Source: Saprospiraceae bacterium
GTDB lineage: Bacteria > Bacteroidota > Bacteroidia > Chitinophagales > Saprospiraceae
Direction of reading: 5' to 3'
Assembly: GCA_016787285.1 (NCBI GenBank)
Contig: JAEUUV010000007.1
Coordinates: forward strand, 1 to 35,364
DNA: 35,364 nt
Every line of letters begins with the position of its first letter. Position 1 is the first letter of the stretch. The position numbers and the translations under genes are program-made. Below are positions 21,369 to 35,100 of the stretch, piece by piece. The notes under the pieces are model-generated. The model did no database searches. It saw nothing but the letters and a program-made list of their open reading frames with translations, and had not been told where the DNA came from.

Positions 21369-23633
21369 ATGATTTTTGATCTGAAGATGATCCGGGAGTT
21401 TTACAAAAACTACCCGGCCCGCGTGGATGCCGCCAAGGCCAAACTCAAGCGCCCGCTTACCCTTTCCGAAAAAATCCTCTACGCCCACCTGCACCCCGAC
21501 AGCCCGCTGCAGGAATATAAGCGCGGCTCGGACTACGTGTTTTTTCAGGTGGACCGCGTGGCCATGCAGGACGCCACCGCCCAGATGGCCCTGCTCCAGT
21601 TTATGACCTGCGGACGCAAAAAAGTGGCCGTGCCCAGTACCGTACACTGCGACCACCTCATCACTGCCGAAGTGGGCGCCGCCAAAGACATGGTCGTGGC
21701 GCTGGACAAAAACAAGGAGGTGTTCGACTTCCTGTCGTCCGTCAGCCAGAAGTACGGCATCGGGTTCTGGAAACCCGGCGCGGGCATCATCCACCAGATT
21801 GTGTTGGAAAACTACGCTTTCCCCGGCGGCATGATGATCGGTACCGACTCGCACACGGTGAACGCGGGCGGCGCCGGCATGGTAGCCATCGGCGTAGGTG
21901 GCGCCGACGCGGTAGATGCCATGAGCGGCATGGGCTGGGAACTGCAAATGCCCAAACTCATCGGCGTGAAACTCACCGGCAAACTGCGTGGTTGGGCTTC
22001 GCCCAAAGACGTGATCCTGAAAGTGGCGGGCATCCTGACCGTGAAAGGCGGCACGGGCGCCATCGTGGAATATTTCGGCCCCGGCGCCACCAGCATGAGC
22101 GCCACCGGCAAGGGCACCATCTGCAACATGGGCGCTGAAATCGGCGCGACCACCTCCACATTCGGCTACGACAAAAGCATGTTCCGCTACCTCAAGGCCA
22201 CGGGCCGCAACAAGGTGGCCGCCATGTGCAACAAAGTCGCGTCCTACCTTACCGGCGATGCCGAGTGCTACGCCAACCCGGAAAAATACTTCGATCAGGT
22301 GATCGAAATTGACCTGTCCAAACTGGAGCCGCACATCAACGGGCCGTTCACGCCTGATCTGGCCTGGCCGCTCAGCAAGTTTGCAGCCGCCGTTAAAAAG
22401 AACAAATACCCCGCCCAACTCGAAGTCGGCCTCATCGGCTCCTGCACCAACTCTTCCTACGAAGACCTGACCCGTGCGGCTTCTATTGCCCGCCAGGCCA
22501 AGGAGAAAAACCTGGAAGTCAAGGCCGAATTTACCATCACGCCCGGCTCGGAACTGATCCGCTACACCGCCCAGCGCGACGGCATCCTCAGCGACTTCTC
22601 CGAAATCGGCGGCGTGGTGCTGGCCAATGCCTGCGGCCCCTGCATCGGGCAGTGGAGCCGCCATATGGACGACATGAAACGGCCCAATTCGATCATGACC
22701 TCGTTCAACCGCAACTTCACCGGGCGCAACGACGGCAACCCCAACACCCACGCGTTCGTGGCTTCGCCGGAGATCGTCACCGCCTTCGCCATTGCGGGCG
22801 ACCTCACCTTCAACCCGAAAAAAGGCACACTCGTGAACCGCAAGGGCGAAACCGTGAAACTTGATCCGCCCAAAGGCATCGAACTGCCCAAGGCCGGATT
22901 CGCGGTGGAAGACGCCGGCTACATCGCGCCCGCCAAAGGCGGCGTGAAAATTTTGGTGGACAAAAAGTCGGATCGCCTCCAGTTGCTCAAGCCCTTTGTG
23001 CCCATCACCAACGGCGAACTGCAAAACATGCGCGTGCTGATCAAGGCCAAGGGCAAGTGCACCACCGACCACATCAGCATGGCAGGCCCCTGGCTCAAGT
23101 ACCGCGGCCACCTCGAGAACATTTCCAACAACTGCTATATCGGCGCTACCAACGCCTTCAACGATGAGCGTAACAAGGTGTTCAACGCAGAAAACGGCCA
23201 GTACATGGAAGTGCCTGCTTCGGCGCGTGCCTACCAGAAAAAAGGCATCGGTACCATCATCTTCGGCGAGGAAAACCTTGGCGAAGGCAGCAGCCGCGAG
23301 CACGCCGCCATGGAGCCGCGCTACCTTGGTGTGAAAGCCGTGGTGGTCAAATCCTTCGCCCGTATTCACCAGACCAACCTGAAAAAGCAGGGCATGCTGG
23401 CGCTCACGTTCGCCAATCCGGCCGACTACGACAAAGTGCGTCAGGACGACAAAGTGAGCATCCTCGGCTTTGAAAAATTTGCGCCGGGCAAACCCCTGCA
23501 AATCCGCCTCGACCACGCCGACGGCACCACCGAAACCTTCGATGTGCTGCACTCCTACAACGAGCAGCAGATTGACTGGGTACGGGCGGGCAGTGCGCTG
23601 AACAAGATTCGGACGGAGATGGGGGTGAAGTAA
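21369..23633 (+). CDS. acn: Aconitate hydratase (mitochondrial-type)
   Basis: 754 aa. It converts citrate to isocitrate in the TCA cycle with a [4Fe-4S] cluster, in the cytoplasm. Cluster cysteines lie in [11 protein letters not shown] and in [11 protein letters not shown]. Other conserved parts are [13 protein letters not shown], the swivel-domain motif [18 protein letters not shown] and [20 protein letters not shown]. Length and start ([19 protein letters not shown]) suit the mitochondrial-type aconitase common in Bacteroidota. The last 150 bp of the coding sequence is duplicated at 26703-26852, beyond an inserted ABC-3C operon. The gene itself is intact and its terminator follows at 23672-23711. 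Confidence 0.95.
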
Positions 23634-23711
23634 TTGATTCGATTCTTTCGATTGAGCCGATTGATTCGATTGCCGGCTGTTCGCGCACGGGGCGCGGGCA
23701 GCCGGTTTTTT
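23484..23711 (+). repeat. Direct repeat, upstream copy: acn 3' end plus terminator
   Basis: 228 bp that recur at 26703-26930 without gaps and with eight mismatches (at 23486, 23534, 23553, 23554, 23588, 23664, 23687, 23688). It covers the last 150 bp of acn, a GATTCGATT-rich spacer and the acn terminator. The longest identical block is 75 bp (23589-23663). Confidence 0.97.
23672..23711 (+). terminator. Rho-independent terminator of acn
   Basis: GCCGGCTG pairs with CAGCCGGT's stem side (CCGGCTG/CAGCCGG), with an inner CGCGC/GCGCG stem, then six T. It lies 38 nt after the acn stop. The two differences from the downstream copy fall in the loop. Confidence 0.85.
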
Positions 23712-23715
23712 AGGT

Positions 23716-23746
23716 TTTGGAAAATCAAACCTTTTGTTTTCCTTTG
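23716..23746 (+). promoter_or_regulatory. Promoter of the ABC-3C operon
   Basis: A -33 TTTG at 23716-23719 and a -7 TTCCTTTG at 23739-23746 (one mismatch to TAnnTTTG) are separated by 19 nt, the usual spacing. The -33 element begins 4 nt past the end of the duplicated acn terminator, so the cassette carries its own promoter. Confidence 0.5.
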
Positions 23747-23778
23747 CACAGCAATAAGCCTACTGCTCATACCGCTTT

Positions 23779-24726
23779 ATGAATCACGCCGAACGATACT
23801 TTGCCCAAAAACTCTTCCGCAACAAAGTGCTGGAATGCAAAGGCAGTGAATTTCAAAAGTTTTTTGCTCAAATAATGGGCAGAGCCTACCCTGACTTTAC
23901 AAGCATTAAGCCGCAAGGCAAGTTGGGAGACTGGAAAAATGACGGATATGATCGCAAAACAGGAGTATTTTATCAAGTTTACGCTCCTGAGCAACCAGAA
24001 AAGAATAAACCTGCGGAGGCAATTAAAAAACTCACTGAAGCCTTCGAGGGGATTTTGGAAAAATGGAATGCGCTGACACCGGTGCGAAAGTTCTATTTTG
24101 CCTTCAACGATGAGTTCAGGTTTGCTCATCCAGAAGTAGAGGCTAGCCTTCTCAACTTAACAAAAAAGCATGGCATCCCATGTGAACCATTTTTAGCGAA
24201 AGATTTGCAGCGTGTATTCGAAGGGCTTTCTGATGAAGACATAATGTTTTGTCTTGATTGTCACATCCCGAATGTAGATGAACTTTATCCGATTGTGAGC
24301 GGCGACGCATTGAGAGAAGTGGTTAAGCATATTTTACAACTTCCTTTTGATATCCGGAAGCCTATTGCTTCAGCTCGCCCCGGCTTTGTTAAAAAAATAC
24401 AGTTCAATTCCCTGAGCAGCCAAGTAGCTGATTTGTTGAAAATGGGAGAATTTCAAATCGGGACACTCCAAACATATTTTGAATTGGAGTCTGATCTCAA
24501 GTCAATTCTCCAAGAGAAGTTTTCGGGCCTCTATGAGCAAGGGAAAAAAGAAATAGTGGGAGACCATGATGAACGAAGCGATGAAATATTTTTCTACATT
24601 TTTGGGAAATCTACCCCCACTGAAACCCCAAGCCATGCTATTTCACCTGCCATCATCGCGCTGATGTCCTACTATTTTGAAAGTTGTGATATTTTTGAAC
24701 CGCCCAAAACCGAACTTTTTGACTGA
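23779..24726 (+). CDS. ABC-3C system effector with N-terminal restriction-endonuclease-like domain
   Basis: 315 aa, no signal peptide. The first ~80 residues look like a restriction-endonuclease fold: SEFQKFFAQIMGRAYPDF, then GKLGDWKNDGY (candidate Asp51), then GVFYQVYAPEQ (Gln66-x-Tyr68 where ExK/QxK is usual). This GD..NDG...YQVYAPE pattern recurs in nuclease effectors next to ABC-three-component ATPases. The middle (~80-200) is alpha/beta and includes KFYFAFNDEFR and HGIPCEPFLAKDLQRVFEGL. The C-terminal ~100 residues are probably the domain that contacts the partner proteins. Its stop codon overlaps the next start (TGATG). The proposed role is DNA cleavage when the ATPase is triggered, as suggested for this class; activity is not proven, because the lysine of a classic PD-(D/E)xK site is not evident. 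Confidence 0.72.
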   Translation: MNHAERYFAQKLFRNKVLECKGSEFQKFFAQIMGRAYPDFTSIKPQGKLGDWKNDGYDRKTGVFYQVYAPEQPEKNKPAEAIKKLTEAFEGILEKWNALTPVRKFYFAFNDEFRFAHPEVEASLLNLTKKHGIPCEPFLAKDLQRVFEGLSDEDIMFCLDCHIPNVDELYPIVSGDALREVVKHILQLPFDIRKPIASARPGFVKKIQFNSLSSQVADLLKMGEFQIGTLQTYFELESDLKSILQEKFSGLYEQGKKEIVGDHDERSDEIFFYIFGKSTPTETPSHAISPAIIALMSYYFESCDIFEPPKTELFD

Positions 24727-24971
24727 TGATTCTACCTGATAAACATATCACAATCTCGCAGTCCCTGCTAGGGCTGGGCGGTTATATTTTGACGGTTTTG
24801 GACTCTCCTCAAACCATTGACGAACTGTGGCAACAACTTGAAAAAACACTCGGCTCTCCTAAGTTTCCGACCAACCATACCTTTGAAAACATGATTCTGG
24901 CCCTCAATTTCTTGTACTTGATCCGGGCTATTGATTATACGCCTGAAGGAAAAATCGAGACATGCGCCTGA
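24726..24971 (+). CDS. ABC-3C middle component, MC6-like
   Basis: 81 aa. The opening MILPDKHITISQSLLGLGGYILTVL and the helical rest (IDELWQQLEK; FENMILALNFLYLIRAIDYT) match the small winged-helix middle components of ABC-3C systems, best the MC6 group. The role is inferred to be a linker between effector and ATPase, or a DNA- or signal-reading subunit. It overlaps the effector gene by 1 nt and the ATPase gene by 10 nt, so its translation is likely coupled to both. It is short but fits the family length. Confidence 0.78.
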   Translation: MILPDKHITISQSLLGLGGYILTVLDSPQTIDELWQQLEKTLGSPKFPTNHTFENMILALNFLYLIRAIDYTPEGKIETCA

Positions 24972-26695
24972 TAAAATTGTCTGCCAACCAAGAGAGTTTT
25001 CGCACCATCGAATTCAACACGACTGGGCTTTCACTTATTTTGGCCAGCAAGAAGGTGGAAGACACGCTCAAAACCTATAATAGTACAGGAAAGTCGCTTT
25101 CAATTGCCCTCACCCATTTCTGTCTGGGTTCGTCCAACAACAAAGCATTTGGAGAAAACCTGCCAGATTGGGAGTTCCAACTGCAATTTGAGATTAATGG
25201 GAAGGCGTACGAAAGCCGAAGATCGACCAAAAAACAGGGCGATATTTTCTTGAACAACAAGAAATATTCCCTTGAGAAATTCAGGGGGTTCATGTTTGAT
25301 ATGTTGTTCGAGACCCCTGAACAAGCCGAATACATCTCATTTCGCTCTCTCATCTCGCGGTTTATTCGTCCTGGAAAATTTGCCTACAATGATGCCACTA
25401 TATACATCCGGAAAGAGCAAGACCCTGTTCGTCAATTGAACAATGCCTACTTACTGGGGCTCGACACAAAACTAATCTCCGACAAACTTCGGTTCAGAAA
25501 AGAACTGAAAGAGGCCAAGGATTTCAAGAAGCAATTAGAAGGCAACCCTGATTTCAAGGCCTTTTTGGAAAAGCAGCCTGTCAGACTTAACCCAGATATC
25601 AAAATAAAGAGCCTCAAAGATGAGATTGAGCGGCTGCAAAAATCCTTGCAATCCTTTGTGATTGCAGAGGACTACAATTCGCTCAAATTGGAAGCAGACA
25701 AAAAAACAAGGGAGATCGCTGAAAGGATGAACGAGGTGGTACGCTTCAAAAATGTCATCGCCAATATTGAAAACACACTGCTTCTAAGAAAGGATATTCC
25801 CGTTGAAAAGGTACTCAAGATGTATGACGAAGCCAAGGTAGAGATACCGGACTTGGTCAAGAGGACTGCCCAAGAGGCAGAGCAGTTTCACCTGAAAATT
25901 CTGTCTGATCGAACTTCACGATTAATCAAGGAAAAACAAAAATTTGAGGGATTAGTAGCAGCCGAAAACGCAAAAATTGCTCTGCTTGACCGCGAAAGAT
26001 CAGAACTGCTCCAATTTTTGAAAGGTCGAGGCGCTTTGGAGGAATATCTCGACTTGACCCGAAGAATAACTGATGCGACTCAGCAACTTGAAAAATTTGA
26101 ATTTTTCAAAGAATTTACAACCAAACAAAAAAACAGAATCAATGAAATCGAAATTGCTCTTAAAGACGGCAATATCCAGGCGAACAACTACTTGAGTGAA
26201 AATGAGGCGCTTTTAGAAGATAATATTGCACTCTTCCAGTCTATCGTTCGTGACTGCTACGATGACAAAACAGCTGGCATTAACGTGGCCAACAATGAGG
26301 GTGATAACCAAATTCGCTTCAACATCGATCCTTACATTGATACTGGTGGAAGTGGAGGCGGCGTAGACAAGGTGGAAATATTTTGCTATGATTGGATGAT
26401 TTTGCTGGCGCAACACCATCACCAAGTTAAAGTCATATGGCATGATAGTTTAATTTTTGAAGGAGTGGATACACGTCAAAAATCTACACTTCTAAAATTT
26501 GCATTAGAACAATCCGAACAAAAAGGATTGCAGTACATCATCGCACTTAATCAGAATGAGTTCGATGACATCCAAAATCAGTTTCCTGAAATTGCAAGAA
26601 GGCTCTATCATAGGTGTGTTTTAGAATTGACTGATGAATCAGATGAAATGAAGTTGCTGGGGCAGAGAGTGATAATGGAGTATGACAAAGGGTAG
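24962..26695 (+). CDS. ABC-3C SMC/Rad50-like ATPase (DUF2326-like)
   Basis: 577 aa, cytoplasmic. An N-terminal ATPase half carries the Walker A-like segment YNSTGKSLS (Lys44). A central region from about residue 155 to 430 is rich in Lys/Glu/Leu heptads, that is, coiled coil (KIKSLKDEIERLQKSLQSF; EADKKTREIAERMNEV). The C-terminal half has an ABC-signature-like DTGGSGGGVDK and the Walker B region VKVIWHDSLIFEGVDTRQ. The last two match the DUF2326 tail typical of ABC-3C ATPases. The Walker B Asp is followed by Ser, so the usual catalytic Glu is not in its normal place. The expected role is sensing or holding DNA and gating the effector nuclease. The gene starts inside the middle-component gene and stops 7 nt before the duplicated acn tail. 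Confidence 0.82.
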   Translation: MRLIKLSANQESFRTIEFNTTGLSLILASKKVEDTLKTYNSTGKSLSIALTHFCLGSSNNKAFGENLPDWEFQLQFEINGKAYESRRSTKKQGDIFLNNKKYSLEKFRGFMFDMLFETPEQAEYISFRSLISRFIRPGKFAYNDATIYIRKEQDPVRQLNNAYLLGLDTKLISDKLRFRKELKEAKDFKKQLEGNPDFKAFLEKQPVRLNPDIKIKSLKDEIERLQKSLQSFVIAEDYNSLKLEADKKTREIAERMNEVVRFKNVIANIENTLLLRKDIPVEKVLKMYDEAKVEIPDLVKRTAQEAEQFHLKILSDRTSRLIKEKQKFEGLVAAENAKIALLDRERSELLQFLKGRGALEEYLDLTRRITDATQQLEKFEFFKEFTTKQKNRINEIEIALKDGNIQANNYLSENEALLEDNIALFQSIVRDCYDDKTAGINVANNEGDNQIRFNIDPYIDTGGSGGGVDKVEIFCYDWMILLAQHHHQVKVIWHDSLIFEGVDTRQKSTLLKFALEQSEQKGLQYIIALNQNEFDDIQNQFPEIARRLYHRCVLELTDESDEMKLLGQRVIMEYDKG

Positions 26696-26702
26696 CATCC
26701 AC

Positions 26703-26852
26703 CCCGGCAAACCCCTGCAAATCCGCCTCGACCACGCCGACGGCACCACCGACACCTTCGATGTGCTGCACAGCTACAACGAGCAGCAGATTGACTGGGT
26801 ACGGGCAGGCAGTGCGCTGAACAAGATTCGGACGGAGATGGGGGTGAAGTAA
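26703..26852 (+). pseudogene. Remnant of the aconitase 3' end
   Basis: The last 50 codons of acn, including the TAA stop, in the same orientation and without frameshift but lacking a start and the first ~700 codons. Compared with the intact gene it has GAC for GAA (D/E), AGC for TCC (Ser) and GCA for GCG (Ala), plus one change at its first few bases. Confidence 0.93.
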
Positions 26853-26890
26853 TTGATTCGATTCTTTCGATTGAGCCGATTGGTTCGATT

Positions 26891-26930
26891 GCCGGCTGTT
26901 CGCGCGTGGGGCGCGGGCAGCCGGTTTTTT
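26891..26930 (+). terminator. Duplicated acn terminator, now ending the ABC-3C operon
   Basis: Same stem and six-T tail as the acn terminator, with GT instead of AC in the loop. It is the first terminator after the ATPase stop codon. Confidence 0.82.
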
Positions 26931-26972
26931 CATGCCGACACATTTGCCGTCCGGATTTTTCCCGCCCTTGAA

Positions 26973-26980
26973 TACCTTTG
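26973..26980 (+). promoter_or_regulatory. -7 box for apaG
   Basis: TACCTTTG matches TAnnTTTG and lies 37 nt before the apaG ATG, just past the duplicated terminator. Confidence 0.5.
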
Positions 26981-27017
26981 CTGCCACCCGCTCACAGCCA
27001 AACAACAACGGCGCACG

Positions 27018-27404
27018 ATGGAGACGCTCACCACCAACCACATTACCGTCAGCGTAGAGACGGAGTACCAGCCGGAACATTCCAATCCGCGCACGGGCAA
27101 ATACATTTTCGCGTACCACATCAGCATCGAAAACGGCAGCCTGCACACCGTGCAGTTGTTGCGCCGCCACTGGCTCATTCAGGATGCCTGCGGCACCCTG
27201 CGCGAAGTGGAAGGCGAGGGCGTGGTGGGGCTGCAGCCGGTGCTGGCGCCCGGGGCGGCGCACCGGTACTCGTCGTTTTGCAACCTCGATACCGATACCG
27301 GAAAAATGACGGGTGCCTACCTGATGGCGCGCACCGACGACGGCTCCATGTTCGAGGCCAATATTCCCGAGTTTGTGATGTTGGCGCCGTTCAAACTGAA
27401 TTGA
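27018..27404 (+). CDS. apaG: ApaG-domain protein
   Basis: 128 aa, the usual ApaG length. The single fibronectin-III-like domain is complete: ITVSVETEYQPEHS, KYIFAYHISIENGS, VQLLRRHWLIQDACG, GEGVVGLQPVLAPGAAHRYS and TGKMTGAYLM. ApaG proteins are linked in enterobacteria to Co2+ resistance and Mg2+ efflux; their molecular role is unclear. The start METLTTNHI is chosen because the longer open frame reads back through the acn terminator. It would have been the direct downstream neighbour of acn before the cassette arrived. It converges with the next gene. Confidence 0.93.
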   Translation: METLTTNHITVSVETEYQPEHSNPRTGKYIFAYHISIENGSLHTVQLLRRHWLIQDACGTLREVEGEGVVGLQPVLAPGAAHRYSSFCNLDTDTGKMTGAYLMARTDDGSMFEANIPEFVMLAPFKLN

Positions 27405-27418
27405 GCCGGGTAAAACAA

Positions 27419-28906
27419 TCAATCGGAAGTTGGTTGTGGGTATTCAAGGGACGGTTCAAGCCGGCCTTTTTCCTGTGCTTTTTTCAAAAGCCATTGGTAC
27501 TCGAAAATATCGGAATTTGCCTGGATTTGGGATATGATTGTCTTCGCCCTCAGGATATTGCCGTTCGGGCAACGGTAAAGACGTGCCAAGGCATTCAGGA
27601 ACAACCGGAGAGCATGGAGCCGTTCCGGATTAACTTTGTGGGAAATGTTCCGGTTCAAAAAAAGCCGGAATGCGTCCATCCGGTAGGGAAATAATTCCGA
27701 ATTGAGTTCATAAAGGATTTGGAGTTCAAGGACTCGTATAAATTGCTGGACACTGGTATCCGGTATCTTTTGAGGCAATGCATCCAACGCTTTTTCCTGG
27801 GATCCTGTATAGAAGTGGTAACGGGCCAGATTGTAACGAAAATAGGCGTCATCTTCTGTTTCTCCGGCAATTTTGTTTTTATGCTCTTGCAATATTTCCA
27901 GAGCAACCTCCGAATATCCGAGCATCAAGGCGACTTTAACAACAGATTCCAGGGTTTGAGGCAGAATCTTGTCGTGGTAATACAGGTGGCCGTTAGCCAT
28001 GTTATCCCGGGCAACTTCCAGATACCGCATGCCTATGTCCGGATTTTTACTTGCATTGAACCAGATGAGCAGAATATTTCGGAGTATAGCCCATCCTCGC
28101 TTTTTGTCTTCATCCAACAGACTTACCTCATTTTTCTTCAGCCAAAACACTAATTGTTCAAATACCGGCAAATCCGGTTTTTTGGAGGCCGATAACCAAT
28201 TGTATTGATTTCCGAGGTACAGCAGAGGATTCTCCTGGTTGATGCTTTCCGCAAAAGGCTGTTCCTTCAGGATGTGCAGGGTCAATTCAGAGGGCTTAAA
28301 CTCAAATCGGTCGCTGAATGCGGAAGCGGACGTAGTCAGATCCATCTTCGATATCTGATAAAACAGGTAAAGCGCCTCAAAGGCCTCGTTGAATGGTAAA
28401 TTCGGTGTTTTAAAGGCTTGCATAATTTGTTGATCTACTTCACAAACGCATAATTGCACCTGATACAGGTAACGGATCGCCCCCCCCGTAGCAGCCTGTG
28501 CCAATATCTGACGCGCCTCCGTCAAGGCCGCATCGCTGTATTTTAACAATTGTCGTTTTTGAAAAGACCGGGCTAATCTTAATTGCTTTTCCAATTCATT
28601 TGCATGGAGTCGGTTCTCCTCCATGGAAAGGAAGTTCAACACATGCTGGTGAAGTTCTGCGATGTATTTTTCCAGCCTCCGATTTGGGAGGGGTGTCCCT
28701 GTAAAAAAAACCTGGGGCAATGTTGAAACATTTGTACTGCTATTGGCAGGTTGATTGATCCATTCCAGGCTGATATCCAGCAAATGCAACAAATTATCGG
28801 CTTTTTTGCCGTTCAAAAAGTAAGGCGATGATACGTATTTTCGTAGCCGTCTGCGTTCAGGGGCGGTCAAGGTCTGGAGAATCCTGAATAAGCGTTCAAA
28901 GCCCAT
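27419..28906 (-). CDS. Conserved-looking helical protein of unknown function
   Basis: 495 aa with no signal peptide or membrane segment. It opens with MGFERLFRILQTLTAPERRR and SPYFLNGKKADNLLHLLDIS. The rest is predicted mostly helical, with TPR-like spacing in parts (ILQEHKNKIAGETEDDAYFR; LARYHFYTGSQEKALDALPQ). I do not recognise a family with an assigned function. It is AT-richer than most genes in the window, though less so than the ABC-3C cassette. It could be a scaffold protein. It converges with apaG (14 nt between the genes) and is divergent from the adhesin. Confidence 0.78.
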   Translation of the reverse strand: MGFERLFRILQTLTAPERRRLRKYVSSPYFLNGKKADNLLHLLDISLEWINQPANSSTNVSTLPQVFFTGTPLPNRRLEKYIAELHQHVLNFLSMEENRLHANELEKQLRLARSFQKRQLLKYSDAALTEARQILAQAATGGAIRYLYQVQLCVCEVDQQIMQAFKTPNLPFNEAFEALYLFYQISKMDLTTSASAFSDRFEFKPSELTLHILKEQPFAESINQENPLLYLGNQYNWLSASKKPDLPVFEQLVFWLKKNEVSLLDEDKKRGWAILRNILLIWFNASKNPDIGMRYLEVARDNMANGHLYYHDKILPQTLESVVKVALMLGYSEVALEILQEHKNKIAGETEDDAYFRYNLARYHFYTGSQEKALDALPQKIPDTSVQQFIRVLELQILYELNSELFPYRMDAFRLFLNRNISHKVNPERLHALRLFLNALARLYRCPNGNILRAKTIISQIQANSDIFEYQWLLKKAQEKGRLEPSLEYPQPTSD

Positions 28907-29151: not shown

Positions 29152-32100
29152 ATGAAACATTGTTACGTCCCCCATTTGCTCGTCGGAATACTACTCTTTG
29201 CAGTGTCCAGTCCGAGGGCTCAATGTCCGATAACCGTTAATGCCGGCGACGACATATTGCTCTGCTCCCCCGCGCCATCGGTACAATTAAACGGAGATAT
29301 TTCAGGCGACTACTACGATTTTGCCTGGTCGCCAACCACCGGCATGAGCAATTCCAAGTCGCTTACACCCACCGTCACGGTGAATCAAAACAGGGAGTAT
29401 GTGCTGACTGCGCGAAAAATTATCAGCGAGATCAATCTGGTCGAGAACGGCGATTTCGAGTCGGGAAATACAGGCTTTTCCACCGACTATCTGTACAGCC
29501 CGGGAGACGTTTCGTCGCAGGGAACCTACGACGTTTCCCCAGGTGTCGTTTATCCGTACTCCCCGCCGGCGTTCAATTGTACCGATCACTCGGGTAGCGG
29601 CAATATGCTTTTTGTACATGCCGACCTGATAGCAGGTAGTGAAACCTGGTGCCAGGTAGTTCCGGTGACTCCCAATACTGATTATTTTGTCTCCGTCTGG
29701 ATCATGAATATGAACACTACATTCAATCTGGACATGCGGGTAAACGGAACTACGATCGGCACATTCAGTTACAATGCGGGGCCAATTTTGCCGTTTTGCC
29801 AGTGGCACCAACTGGCCCAAGTGTGGAACAGTGGAAATAACACTACCGCTACACTTTGCTTTGTGCGCACCCCCACTTATCATGCCTTTTACGGCCTTGA
29901 CGATATTTCTTTTTCCCCAATGTGCTCCGTTACAGACACTGTCGCCATTCGGGTGACCAATGTGGTCGCTGCAGCCTCCCCCGCATTGGTCACCCTCCCC
30001 TGCGAAGGCTACGTCACCACACTCAGCGGTCAAGGCTCCAGCACAGGGCCGGGCATTATACACAACTGGGAAACCGCCGACGGCCATATTCTTTCCGGAC
30101 AAAACACCCTGAACCCGACCATTGACGCACCCGGGACCTACACCCTGACGGTGACGCTGGAAGACGCACTCGGCCCCTGCACCAAAACGGCTACTGTAAC
30201 CATGAAACCCGGCGAACCCCTCCAACCCTGGATTCAGGACCCCGGGCCGTTGGACTGCAACAACCCCACTCAAAACCTGCTGGCTCAGGCCAACCTGCCG
30301 GGTACTAAAACCTACCAGTGGACGGCCGGGCCGGGCGGGAATATTGTCTCCGGGACCAATCAGGCCGTGGCCAAGGTGGACCAACCCGGCGAGTACACGG
30401 TGCTGGTGACGATGGCACTGACCGGCTGCACCGCCACCGCTTCTATTCAGGTGGGCGCTGAAAACCTGCCCACGGCTGCCGTCGCCCCTCCGGACACACT
30501 TCAGGCGCTGCCCGATACGATACAACTTTCGGGTACGGTAACACCTGCCAATGCCAATGTGCACTGGAGTACCCCCGACGGCCGGATTGTATCCGGCGCT
30601 AATACCTTGTCGCCGTTGATCTCGGCGCCGGGCACGTACGTGCTCACCGTCACGCACCCGACGACAGGATGCACGGCTACAGCCGTCGTAGTGGTAGCGG
30701 CAACCAACAACTGCTCCATCAGCGTGGATGCCGGGCCGGATCTTCTCCTGTGTGCACCAGCGCCGTCCGTTCAACTCAGCGGAGACATTTCAGGCGATTA
30801 CTACGATTTCGCCTGGTCGCCTACCACCGGTATGAGCAATTCAAAGTCGCTTACACCTACTGTGACGGTGAATCAAAACATGCAGTATGTGCTGACCGGC
30901 AGGAGAGTTATCAGCGAAATCAATCTGGTCGAGAACGGCGATTTCGAGTCGGGAAATACCGGCTTTACCACCGATTATCAGTATAGCCCGGGAGACGTCA
31001 CGGCACAAGGCACCTACGACATTTCCACGAATGTAGTTTTCCCGTATCCTCTCTCACTCAATTGCACGGACCATTCCGGCAGCGGCAGTATGCTTTTTGC
31101 ACATGCCGACCTGGTGCCGGGTAGCGAAACCTGGTGCCAGACAGTTCCGGTGACTCCCAATACCGATTATTATTTTTCCACCTGGATTCAGCCTACCAAC
31201 CATGTTGTTACGTTGAATTTGCAGATAAACGGGGTAGTTGTAGCCGCTTATGCCCACAACCCCGGGCCAAATTGGCAGTTTTGCCAATGGTATCAGGCAG
31301 CAGGCATCTGGAACAGCGGAAACAATACTACCGCATCCCTTTGTATCGTACGCACCCCCACTTATCATGCCATTTACGCCATTGACGACATCTCTTTTTC
31401 GCCAATGTGCAGCGCCACAGATACCGTTGCCGTTCGCGTCACCAATGTAACCGCTACCGCCTCTCCCGCATTGTTTACCATCCCCTGCGAAGGTTTTGTC
31501 ACCACACTCAGCGGTCAAGGCTCCAGCACAGGGCCGGGCATTACCTACAACTGGGAAACCGCAGACGGCCATATTCTTTCCGGACAAAACACCCTGAACC
31601 CGACCATTGACGCGCCCGGCACCTACACCCTGACGGTGACGCTGGAAGACGCGCTCGGCCCCTGCACCAAAACGGCCACTGTAACCGTGAAGCCCGGCGA
31701 ACCCCTCCAGCCCTGGATTCAGGACCCCGGGCCGTTGGACTGCAACAACCCCACTCAAAACCTGCTGGCTCAGGCCAACCTGCCGGGTACTAAAACCTAC
31801 CAGTGGACGGCCGGGCCGGGCGGGAATATTGTCTCCGGGGCCAATCAGGCCGTGGCCAAGGTAGACCAGCCCGGTGAGTACACGGTGCTGGTGACGATGG
31901 CTTTGACCGGCTGCACCGCCACCGCATCCATCCAGGTGGGCGCCGAAAACCTGCCCACGGCTGCCGTCACCCCTCCGGACACACTTCAGGCGCTGCCCGA
32001 TACGATCCAACTTTTTGGTTTGGCCACACCTGTCAATGCCGAGGTACACTGGAGTACCGCCGACGGCCAGATTGTATCCGGCGCTAATACCTCGTCGCCG

Positions 32101-35100
32101 CTGGTTTCGGCGCCGGGCACATACGTGCTCACCGTCACGCACCCGACCACGGGTTGCACAGCCACGGCCAGTATAGTGGTGGTGGCCGAAGACAGCTGCC
32201 CTTCGGGTGTGTTTGCCGGAGCGGATGACTTGGTGTGCCAACCCGGCCAGAGCACGCAACTGAGCGGCGCGATTTCCGCCACCTGGTACGACGCCGTTTG
32301 GTCGCCGGCACAGTACCTGTCCGACCCTTCGGTGCTCAACCCGGTAGCCACTGTTGCACAAAACACCGAGTTTATCTTGTCCGCCCGGCTGTATCAGCCC
32401 ACCCGGAACCTGTTGGTCAACGGTAATTTTGAAGCCGGCGGCAGTGGTTTTTCCAGCGACCTGATGCCCAACCCGACCGACCTGAGCCTGCCTGGACGCT
32501 ACGCGGTTTTGCCCAATGCCGCGACAGCCGATCCCGTGCTGCCCGCTTGCGGCGACCATACCTCCGGCGCCGGCAACCTGCTTGCGGCCCGCCTGCCTGC
32601 GTCGCCGGGGGCGCAACACCTTTGGTGCCAAAACGTGGCGGTCAAACCCGGCACAGAATACCTCTTGTCGGCCTGGGCACTGCGGCTGGCCGGTAACCCG
32701 GTTCTTGATTTGCAGATCAACAACACCGTGCTGGAAACCCTGAGCCTGCCCCCGGATTCCTGCGTTTGGCATCATTGGCGCAGCGTCTGGCACAGCGGGA
32801 TGAGCACGACGGCCGAGGTGTGTATCGGCGCTGACGGCGGTGGCGCATTGGCACTGGACGACCTGTTTTTCACCCCCCTGTGCATGGAGCGAGACACCGT
32901 TTTGGTGCTGATAGCCGACCAGCCGGTGGTGGCTGTGGCTTCAACACCAGGCGTGTTGAATTGTACAGTGCAAACGCTTGCGCTGAGCGCCGCCGGCTCC
33001 AGTACTGGAATGTACCACTGGAACACAGCGGACGGCAACATTATAGCCGGAGCGGAAACGCCGAATCCGACCGTAGACGCCCCGGGAACCTACTTGCTGA
33101 CGGTAACGGACGCAGCCAACGGCTGCACGGCCACCGCCGAAACCGAAGTGAGCGAGGATGTGGCTGCGCCACAAATCAGCGTATTGCTGCCGGCTGTACT
33201 GACCTGCGCCGTCACCACACTGGCGTTACAAGGAACAAACGCTGCCCCTTCAGGTAGTTTTTCCTACCTGTGGACGGCGTCTAACGGCGGAAATATCGTC
33301 TCCGGCGGAAACACCCTCAAGCCGGAAATCAACGCAGCAGGCACCTACAACCTGCTGGCCACCAATACAACCAACGGCTGCACGGCTGTGGCCGAAACAC
33401 AAGTGGATGCCGACGGTGATGAACCGGATGCCGCTCTTTCCGTAGCAGGAACACTGGATTGCAATTTCACGCCGGTCAATCTGACCAATACCTCCAACAC
33501 CGATCCTGCCCTGCTTGATCACAACTGGACGGCGCCCGACGGCGGCACTGTGAACACCGGTGCCAATCCGGTGCTGGCAGCCGGGCAGCCGGGCACATAT
33601 TTACTCACGCTGACGAACACGCAAAACGGCTGTACCACCACCGCCGAAGCCACCGTCGGACAGGACGATCCTGTGGTTGCCGACCTGATCACCCAAAGTG
33701 ATGCTACCTGCTTCGGCGCTTCCGACGGGTCACTCAGCGTTTCCGGCTCGGGTGGCGACGGTGTGTTCACCTACCTGTGGGATAATGGCGAAACGAACAG
33801 CAGCCTTTTCGGACTTCCGGCCGGGACTTACACGGTTACTGCAACAGATGAGCGAGGATGTACGGCAACCGGAGTGTTTATTATCAATCAACCCGACATA
33901 CTCCAACCCAATGCAGTTGCTACGGCAATTACGGCGCCGGGCGGCTCCGATGGTACGGCCTCGGCCAATCCTGCCGGCGGCACCGGGCCTTACACGTTCG
34001 AGTGGACGGGCGGCTCCACCAGCCAGACCATCATCGGCCTCTCCGCCGGTAATTACACCGTGACCGTCACCGACGCCAACGGCTGCACCGCTCAGCAGAC
34101 CGTCAATGTCTTCGGCGGCGCCTGTGATCTGGCCGCACAAACCACCTCCAACGACCCGGCCTGCCACGGCGGCACGGGCGGTACAGCCACCGCCATACCC
34201 GGCGGCGGCACCTCGCCTTTCACCTTCCTGTGGAGTAACGGCCAGACGGGCCAGACCGCTACCGGCCTTGGGGCCGACACCTACACCGTAGTCGTCTCCG
34301 ACGCCAACGGCTGCACCGTGGACGCCGATGTCACCCTGAGCGAACCGCCACTGCTGACCCTGAACCAAGGCACTGTGTCCGATGCTTCCTGTCCCGACAC
34401 ACCCGACGGATCCGCTACCGTGATCCCCGGCGGCGGAACGGGAAATATCGCCATCACCTGGAGCAACGGCGAAACCGGCCCGACGGCCAACGCACTTCCC
34501 GCCGGCCCGCACACCGCCACGGCTACCGACGAAAACGGCTGTACAACCGAACTGACTGTAACCGTGACGGCCAACGACACCGAAGCCCCGGTACTCACCG
34601 GCGGCCCGGTAACCCTGCCCCTTGGCCCGGCGGGTGTCATCAGCCTGACCCTGCAAAACCTCGGCGTGACGGCCACCGACAACTGCGAACTGGCCGGAGA
34701 CGACATCGTGCCGCCCAATTTCGACTGCCTGCAGTTGGGCACACACACCGTAACCGTCACGGCCTACGATGCCGCCGGCAACAGCAGCAGCCTGAACATT
34801 CAGGTAAAAATTGTGGATGACCTAGCCCCGCAGGTAACCTGCCCGGCCAACATCGTGCAGTGTGCCGACAACCGCACCGTGCAGTACCTGGCCCCTGTGG
34901 CCACCGACAACTGCCTGATGCTCGGCGGATTTTTTGAACTGCTCGAAGGACTCCCCAGCGGCTCGCAGTTCCCCACCGGCACCACATTCACGACGTACAC
35001 GTTCACCGATGCCAGCGGCAATGTAGGCGGCTGCTCGTTCACGGTCACCATCCTGACGCCGATCACAGTGGCGGTAGACGAACTGGCCCACGACGTGGGC

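Follow-up and report, generated by a model that had tools for sequence, protein, structure and literature searches.

Insertion with long target duplication has been described for restriction-modification units since 2000 (Nobusato et al. 2000; Furuta et al. 2010; as summarised in PMC1643837, PMC3031569 and PMC3874152). Here, we analyse a locus that shares with it, as far as those summaries describe it, a self-sufficient defence-type unit, no known mobile element and direct repeats on the order of 100 bp derived from the target. The locus is a three-gene ABC-3C operon standing between the aconitate hydratase gene acn and a second copy of the acn 3' tail in a Saprospiraceae bacterium (assembly GCA_016787285.1, below G000; contig JAEUUV010000007.1, positions 1 to 35,364 of the forward strand, a stretch of 35,364 nucleotides referred to as the window). 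The layout recurs at other genes, which suggests that such cassettes rely on no enzyme of their own and enter genomes through recombination at the ends of genes. ABC-3C has been placed within the Lamassu superfamily (PMC10586767), and searches of open-licence papers, together with passages of two papers that mention ABC-3C, gave no report of gene-tail duplications around ABC-3C operons.

The differences from long target duplication, as those summaries present it, lie in the cargo, the repeat and its divergence. The cargo is ABC-3C rather than restriction-modification, although the general mechanism may be common to both. In the clear cases, the repeat is the 3' tail of a gene and keeps that gene whole, with a terminator included in the window. 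Furthermore, the divergence of three of the four testable tail pairs is mostly silent, which sets them apart from plain copies of a single target. A target in the tricarboxylic acid (TCA) cycle, which the original prediction had put forward as a novelty, has a precedent in prophage e14, inserted in icd of Escherichia coli (Hill et al. 1989; as summarised in PMC11148124 and PMC6379469), where a 165-bp duplicated 3' tail likewise restores a TCA-cycle gene and differs from the original at few, mostly silent positions. However, e14 is a prophage with an integrase, whereas the present cassette consists of three genes with no recombinase open reading frame (ORF), and related cassettes use several target genes. 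In homology-facilitated illegitimate recombination (HFIR) and single crossovers, as treated in PMC3240628 and PMC5361080, one-sided homology similarly adds foreign genes beside a conserved gene, and single crossovers also leave a partial duplication of the end of the homologous gene. Long target duplication was thus already known; new here are the ABC-3C cargo, the gene-tail frame with its terminator and the evidence that the tails are different alleles.

The cassette and its framing repeats

Recomputation reproduced the repeat pair reported around the operon: two direct, ungapped 228-bp copies at 23484-23711 and 26703-26930 on the forward strand, with 8 mismatches (96% identity) and a spacing of 3219. 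The upstream copy holds the final 49 codons of acn, its stop codon and a terminator, and completes a gene of 754 amino acids (21369..23633, forward strand; Aconitase and Aconitase_C) that scores 1081 bits against TIGR01340 (cut-off 825), so the target is intact, as had been proposed. The downstream copy is the expected remnant, a 5'-truncated acn tail with stop codon and terminator; it follows the ATPase stop codon (26693-26695) after a gap of 7 nt, within one base of the 8 nt first given. Similarity between the copies starts at the Pro codon of ...APGKPLQ..., 49 codons ahead of the acn stop, and ceases at the end of the terminator T-run. The longest exact run within the pair is 75 nt, as opposed to 13-17 nt for the longest exact direct repeats in 20 dinucleotide shuffles of the window, which rules out a chance origin; a separate exact repeat of 129 nt in the window is too long to belong to the pair. 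Across the 345 contigs of G000, the whole repeat occurs at two sites only; of 64 matches, the remaining 62 are short and confined to repeat positions 130-199.

All three Pfam marks identify the cassette as an ABC-3C operon, in agreement with the original prediction, and its defence role is predicted. On the forward strand, it comprises an effector-type gene (23779..24726, 315 amino acids; CTD10 40.9 bits, cut-off 28.1; PDC-M68A), the middle component MC6 (24726..24971, 81 amino acids; 71.4 bits, cut-off 27.2) and a DUF2326 ATPase (24962..26695, 577 amino acids; PF10088 99.3 bits, cut-off 28.7; PDC-M68B 281 bits over residues 3-569). The genes overlap or lie close together, and the combination of CTD10 effector, MC6 and DUF2326 ATPase in one operon is that of known PDC-M68-like ABC-3C systems. 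The ORF list and family searches revealed only these three genes between the two tails and no recombinase ORF, consistent with the reported absence of an integrase.

Had all relatives carried the same operon at that place, the original prediction would have been undermined; none of the 41 further genomes of the genus contains the cassette. The possibility that it is a shared genus trait was also ruled out by protein P0002, which among 42 genomes matches only G000 and G007 (23% identity), the latter carrying a distant relative of the cassette ATPase. A single-sequence search of genome_contigs with P0002 returned no close relatives. Phage records gave no match, distant relatives were present in 61 plasmid records, and E. 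coli genomes searched for empty sites with one query, the DNA of an Aeromonas relative, gave no match.

A terminator-like stem-loop of 15 pairs with a T-run follows acn (23672..23706, forward strand), and a second one, also of 15 pairs (26891..26925, forward strand), would end the cassette transcript. The first gene past the second tail is apaG (27018..27404, forward strand; ApaG domain). Between the acn stop and its terminator lies a piece of interspersed repeat of about 40 nt (23633..23672, no strand assigned), to which many genome matches at repeat positions of about 150-189 correspond; elsewhere in G000 this repeat is often tandem with 27-nt spacing, and several relatives have other short repeats at that place behind the acn stop. 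No transfer RNA (tRNA) was found in the window and no Rfam element at 23000-27500. Downstream of apaG, further long direct repeats at 29230-31608 and 33940-34318 (300 and 130 nt at 82-86% identity with a spacing of about 1485, and 151 nt at 72%) are probably repetitive coding sequence.

Gene tails around related ABC-3C operons

Other DUF2326 ABC-3C loci were drawn from searches of the genus, class and phylum (20 loci) and from genome_contigs, where a search with alignment A1 matched 145 places and 80 loci were kept. A minority of these operons stand between a gene and a copy of that gene's own tail. In G007, of the same genus (L144), the tail is that of malQ, encoding 4-alpha-glucanotransferase, and its two 65-bp copies are identical. 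An hsdR with EcoEI_R_C provides the 167-bp tail repeat of L149 (86%), and an hsdR with EcoR124_C those of L220 (195 bp, 96%) and L221 (135 bp, 88%), where a contig edge cuts hsdR and a DNA-specificity gene lies past the second tail. In L188, an archaeal record titled Methanoperedens, a duplicated hsdS tail was recognised at the protein level only (51%). L150 and L151 hold pieces of an L149-type hsdR tail on either side of the operon, the upstream piece of L150 lying 3 kb ahead of the ATPase; the 12 kb examined revealed no sizeable portion of an hsdR body. Type I restriction-modification genes or remnants thus repeatedly adjoin ABC-3C operons, which sit behind hsdR or hsdS (L149, L150, L151, L188, L220, L221).

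The anatomy of these loci is similar. In the window, L144, L149, L151, L220 and L221, the direct repeats of target sequence are long and variable (65-228 bp), and the segments between the tails measure 2991, 3083, 3030, 3045, 2930 and 2380 bp, respectively; in L221, which has the shortest of these segments, the effector gene looks degraded. In the five loci other than the window, the second tail begins 6-71 nt past the matched ATPase end. The ORF lists of all six segments show no gene other than the operon between the tails; family searches covered the window's three genes and the L188 effector. The host genes, namely acn, malQ, the two kinds of hsdR and hsdS, differ and offer no common attachment site, and this variety of targets, together with the lack of a recombinase, speaks against a single fixed site of attachment. 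On these sequences, the better-supported reading is that tail duplication follows the ABC-3C cassette class, wherever some of its members sit, rather than the acn site.

Of 85 ABC-3C loci, a number that leaves out seven duplicate records, 8 are tightly flanked by direct repeats of 50 bp or more, and one further locus has an inverted pair. None of 455 shifted control positions in 64 of the same loci has such repeats, these positions being several shifts per locus and not independent. The eight flanked loci comprise five gene tails or remnants (window, L144, L149, L151, L220), paralogous genes in L214, and L177 and L209, which have no assignment. At the protein level, the tail of the upstream gene recurred in 6 of 63 loci, including L214, compared with 0 of 203 control ORFs. 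This test caught L188, which the DNA repeat test had missed; its match in L144 is an overlapping ORF in another frame, and the malQ assignment there rests on other comparisons. L221 falls outside the interval covered by the 85-locus DNA test. The hypothesis arose on the window and the first 20 related loci, and the 71 eligible loci that came later from genome_contigs added three clear gene-tail cases (L220, L221, L188); among these 71, L163, L182, L202, L229 and L242 duplicate loci already included, and L217 is a repeat of L216. We do not count as clear cases L159 (inverted repeat), L214, or L177, L209 and L175, whose repeats we could assign to no gene tail. The inverted repeat of L159 is 173 bp long (87%) and surrounds an ABC-3C operon, with copies about 1.5 kb ahead of and just past the ATPase gene.

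The malQ site can be compared with relatives that lack the cassette. G006, of the same genus, has malQ without a second tail, followed by short repeats and then the gene that comes after the second tail in G007 (51% identical protein), and none of the three cassette proteins of G007 was found in it. In G009, a close relative of G007, malQ is followed by a different insert of 10.7 kb (L255, 4418-15081), after which the shared flank resumes 9 nt past the place of G007's second tail; the malQ site, too, therefore takes varied cargo. Judged by these flanks, the surroundings of the downstream tail in G007 are native; by analogy, the native acn tail of the window would be the downstream one.

Additionally, the way in which paired tails differ bears on their origin. 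The window tails differ at four codons, three silently and one by a Glu/Asp replacement (neutral P 0.019), and at the differing sites the codons of both copies occur in acn genes of relatives. Of 14 differing codons in L149, nine are silent and five protein-altering, a skew reached in 0 of 20,000 simulations; the corresponding numbers in L221 are 12, seven and five (P 0.0016). Silent-skewed change in three of the four testable pairs suggests that the tails diverged inside working genes, and in at least these three cases they seem to have been brought together afterwards.

The acn 3' end in relatives

We compared acn 3' ends in 39 relatives of the same genus, which provided 40 flanks (G016 and G024 had none). 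In a tree of acn, G032 was the nearest of these relatives to the organism of the window. Each flank carries one acn tail by tblastn, and at the DNA level a second tail was found in 0 of the 38 testable flanks, compared with 228 bp in the window; 32 of these 38 reach the window's spacing, and G012 and G030 were too short and left out. Other cargo flanked by a second acn tail, which the original prediction had led us to look for, is therefore absent from these flanks by DNA (0/38) and by protein (0/40). The DNA test did pick up local repeats in the flanks of G003, G028, G031, G032, G033 and G038, a 43-nt piece of an inner acn stretch recurring 8.2 kb downstream in G039, and in G022 a 38-nt terminator-like copy (84%) 3.2 kb downstream, past its HigBA and one more gene. 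The apaG gene is present in 40 of the 42 genomes of the genus. It is missing from the acn flanks of the relatives within the sequence retrieved, so the window's right-hand neighbour is itself a change.

Toxin-antitoxin or Schlafen-type cargo stands directly behind acn in 5 of the 39 relatives. HigB_toxin genes occupy this place in G006, G022 and G037, with a partner gene whose product falls into one cluster with the HTH_3 protein of G037; in G030, this position is taken by a HigA-like gene from that cluster, and in G021 by a gene for an SLFN_AlbA_2 protein. In the genus, acn-linked copies make up three of 21 HigB loci and one of 26 SLFN loci. HigB of G022 is 82% identical to that of G010, a copy located away from acn, and shares 71 and 69% identity with the acn-linked copies of G006 and G037; a tree also groups it with the G010 protein, at a support of only 0.74. 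From these sequence comparisons, two or more arrivals behind acn are likely. The acn 3' end may therefore be a busy site. The original proposal that it serves as an exchange site for defence cassettes thus retains moderate support from the cargo behind acn, acn having been named beforehand with no like survey of other genes, but gains none from second acn tails around other cargo. By eye, we also noted ORFs behind acn that we take to be transposase-like (RAYT-type) in L052 (G028), L073 (G033) and L078 (G038), and one presumably DUF1016-like in G041 (L068).

Elsewhere in G033, a HigBA pair (L282) stands between the copies of a 130-bp direct repeat of 96% identity (1199-1328 and 2265-2394). The repeat holds a terminator-like stretch and, by eye, an apparent 3' half of a tRNA gene, and ARAGORN found no complete tRNA. 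This arrangement may represent the same habit as the ABC-3C tails with other cargo.

Possible routes of entry

The ABC-3C cassette probably entered behind acn by host homologous recombination, without a recombinase of its own. Donor DNA from a close relative, in which an acn tail and terminator were joined to the cassette, would have recombined with the acn already present. It could have arrived as a circle that integrated by a single crossover, or in linear form, with one end recombining through homology and the other joined illegitimately. The outcome would read complete acn and terminator, cassette, 5'-truncated acn tail with its own terminator, and old neighbour; acn would stay whole, and the acn and cassette transcripts could both end properly. 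The anatomy, its recurrence at other genes, the cassette-free malQ relative and the mostly silent divergence in three of four pairs are observed; from them we infer the recombination route, the donor, RecA, the circular or linear form and the direction of transfer. In E. coli in the laboratory, single crossovers left gene-end duplications of 109-950 bp in 14 sequenced clones, and a diagnostic polymerase chain reaction product was obtained from 56 of 60 clones, one-sided events being rare (as described in PMC3240628); a similar one-sided route has been proposed for effector arrays of Vibrio cholerae (as described in PMC5361080). Laboratory HFIR, in the same accounts, usually deletes recipient DNA, and the duplications came from single crossovers, whereas the route at this locus is inferred from anatomy.

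Several observations weigh against such an entry. When each locus is counted once, flanking repeats occur in 8 of 85 loci, compared with 0 of the 64 that supplied control positions (P 0.011). As many as 76 of the 85 ABC-3C loci have no flanking repeat, direct or inverted, as expected if repeats decay or other entry routes exist. Background repeats also occur in the genus, in somewhat different windows, at 1 of 29 apaG, 1 of 19 HigBA and 1 of 24 SLFN loci; on inspection, the apaG case proved to be an intergenic repeat, the HigBA case a terminator together with a tRNA-like piece, and the SLFN case an 82% repeat whose kind is uncertain. The L220 tails show no silent skew (P 0.28), and the 65-bp tails of G007 are identical and share two common differences from G009, which plain local duplication fits equally well. 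The parental acn-apaG state was seen in no genome: the empty site of acn, one terminator and apaG envisaged by the original prediction was not found, with apaG in 0 of the 40 relatives' acn flanks within the sequence fetched (tblastn). Finally, the same anatomy would result if an integrase had acted in trans or had been lost in the meantime.

This last point leads to an integrase-type insertion like that of e14 in icd, either of an acn-tail-carrying element later stripped to its defence operon or with the integrase supplied in trans. In e14, the duplicated 165 bp of icd contain 12 nucleotide exchanges and two Glu/Asp replacements, and the target is restored (as described in PMC11148124). The acn tails likewise differ by one Glu/Asp and silent changes, and a tail carried by an element would also evolve as coding sequence, so that the same codon pattern is expected. 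We nevertheless regard this route as unlikely, since neither the window nor the flanked segments read show a recombinase ORF between the tails, and the 38 testable flanks contained no other cargo with a second acn tail. Moreover, integrases of one family should retain a single target, whereas these inserts consist of the operon only and sit at several unrelated genes.

Plain insertion with target duplication, in which a transposition-like or break-repair step copies 65-230 bp and the truncated copy then decays, has an equally low probability in our judgement. Restriction-modification units do insert with long, variable target duplications (order of 100 bp) and no known mobile element, according to PMC3874152, PMC3031569 and PMC1643837, and the identical G007 tails and the L220 tails without silent skew would suit such a step. 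However, the silent-skewed divergence of three of the four testable pairs is unlike the decay of a truncated copy, in which changes would be spread evenly. A lineage-specific chromosomal rearrangement that brought a duplicated acn tail and apaG next to an operon which already stood behind acn, or an assembly mis-join of strains, is very improbable: the absence of apaG from all 40 acn flanks, the 14 relatives' apaG loci read, beside none of which the window's acn-side sequence lies, and the 345 contigs of the assembly would fit, but the tail-operon-tail layout recurs in unrelated genomes, including the nine-contig G007, which speaks against an assembly fault.

Taking host recombination at the acn end as the favoured entry, a further step is conceivable, if doubtful: one class of ABC-3C operons may be recombinase-free mobile cassettes that use a captured host-gene tail as homology arm. 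Once framed by two tails, such an operon could be excised in circular form by ordinary recombination between them and then inserted into the corresponding gene of a different strain. If so, the gene would be left whole each time, the cassette would gain its own terminator where the tail carries one, and each cassette would have a gene-sized address (acn, malQ, hsdR, hsdS) without encoding any integration enzyme.

In our judgement, how small defence operons without integrase or transposase reach new genomes is poorly explained. A gene tail acting as homology arm predicts where such operons could land, why the target survives and why a second terminator may be present, and that donor and recipient alleles come to lie side by side. 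It also provides a search rule, whatever the cargo: a 5'-truncated second copy of a gene's 3' end a few kilobases downstream would mark a recent arrival.

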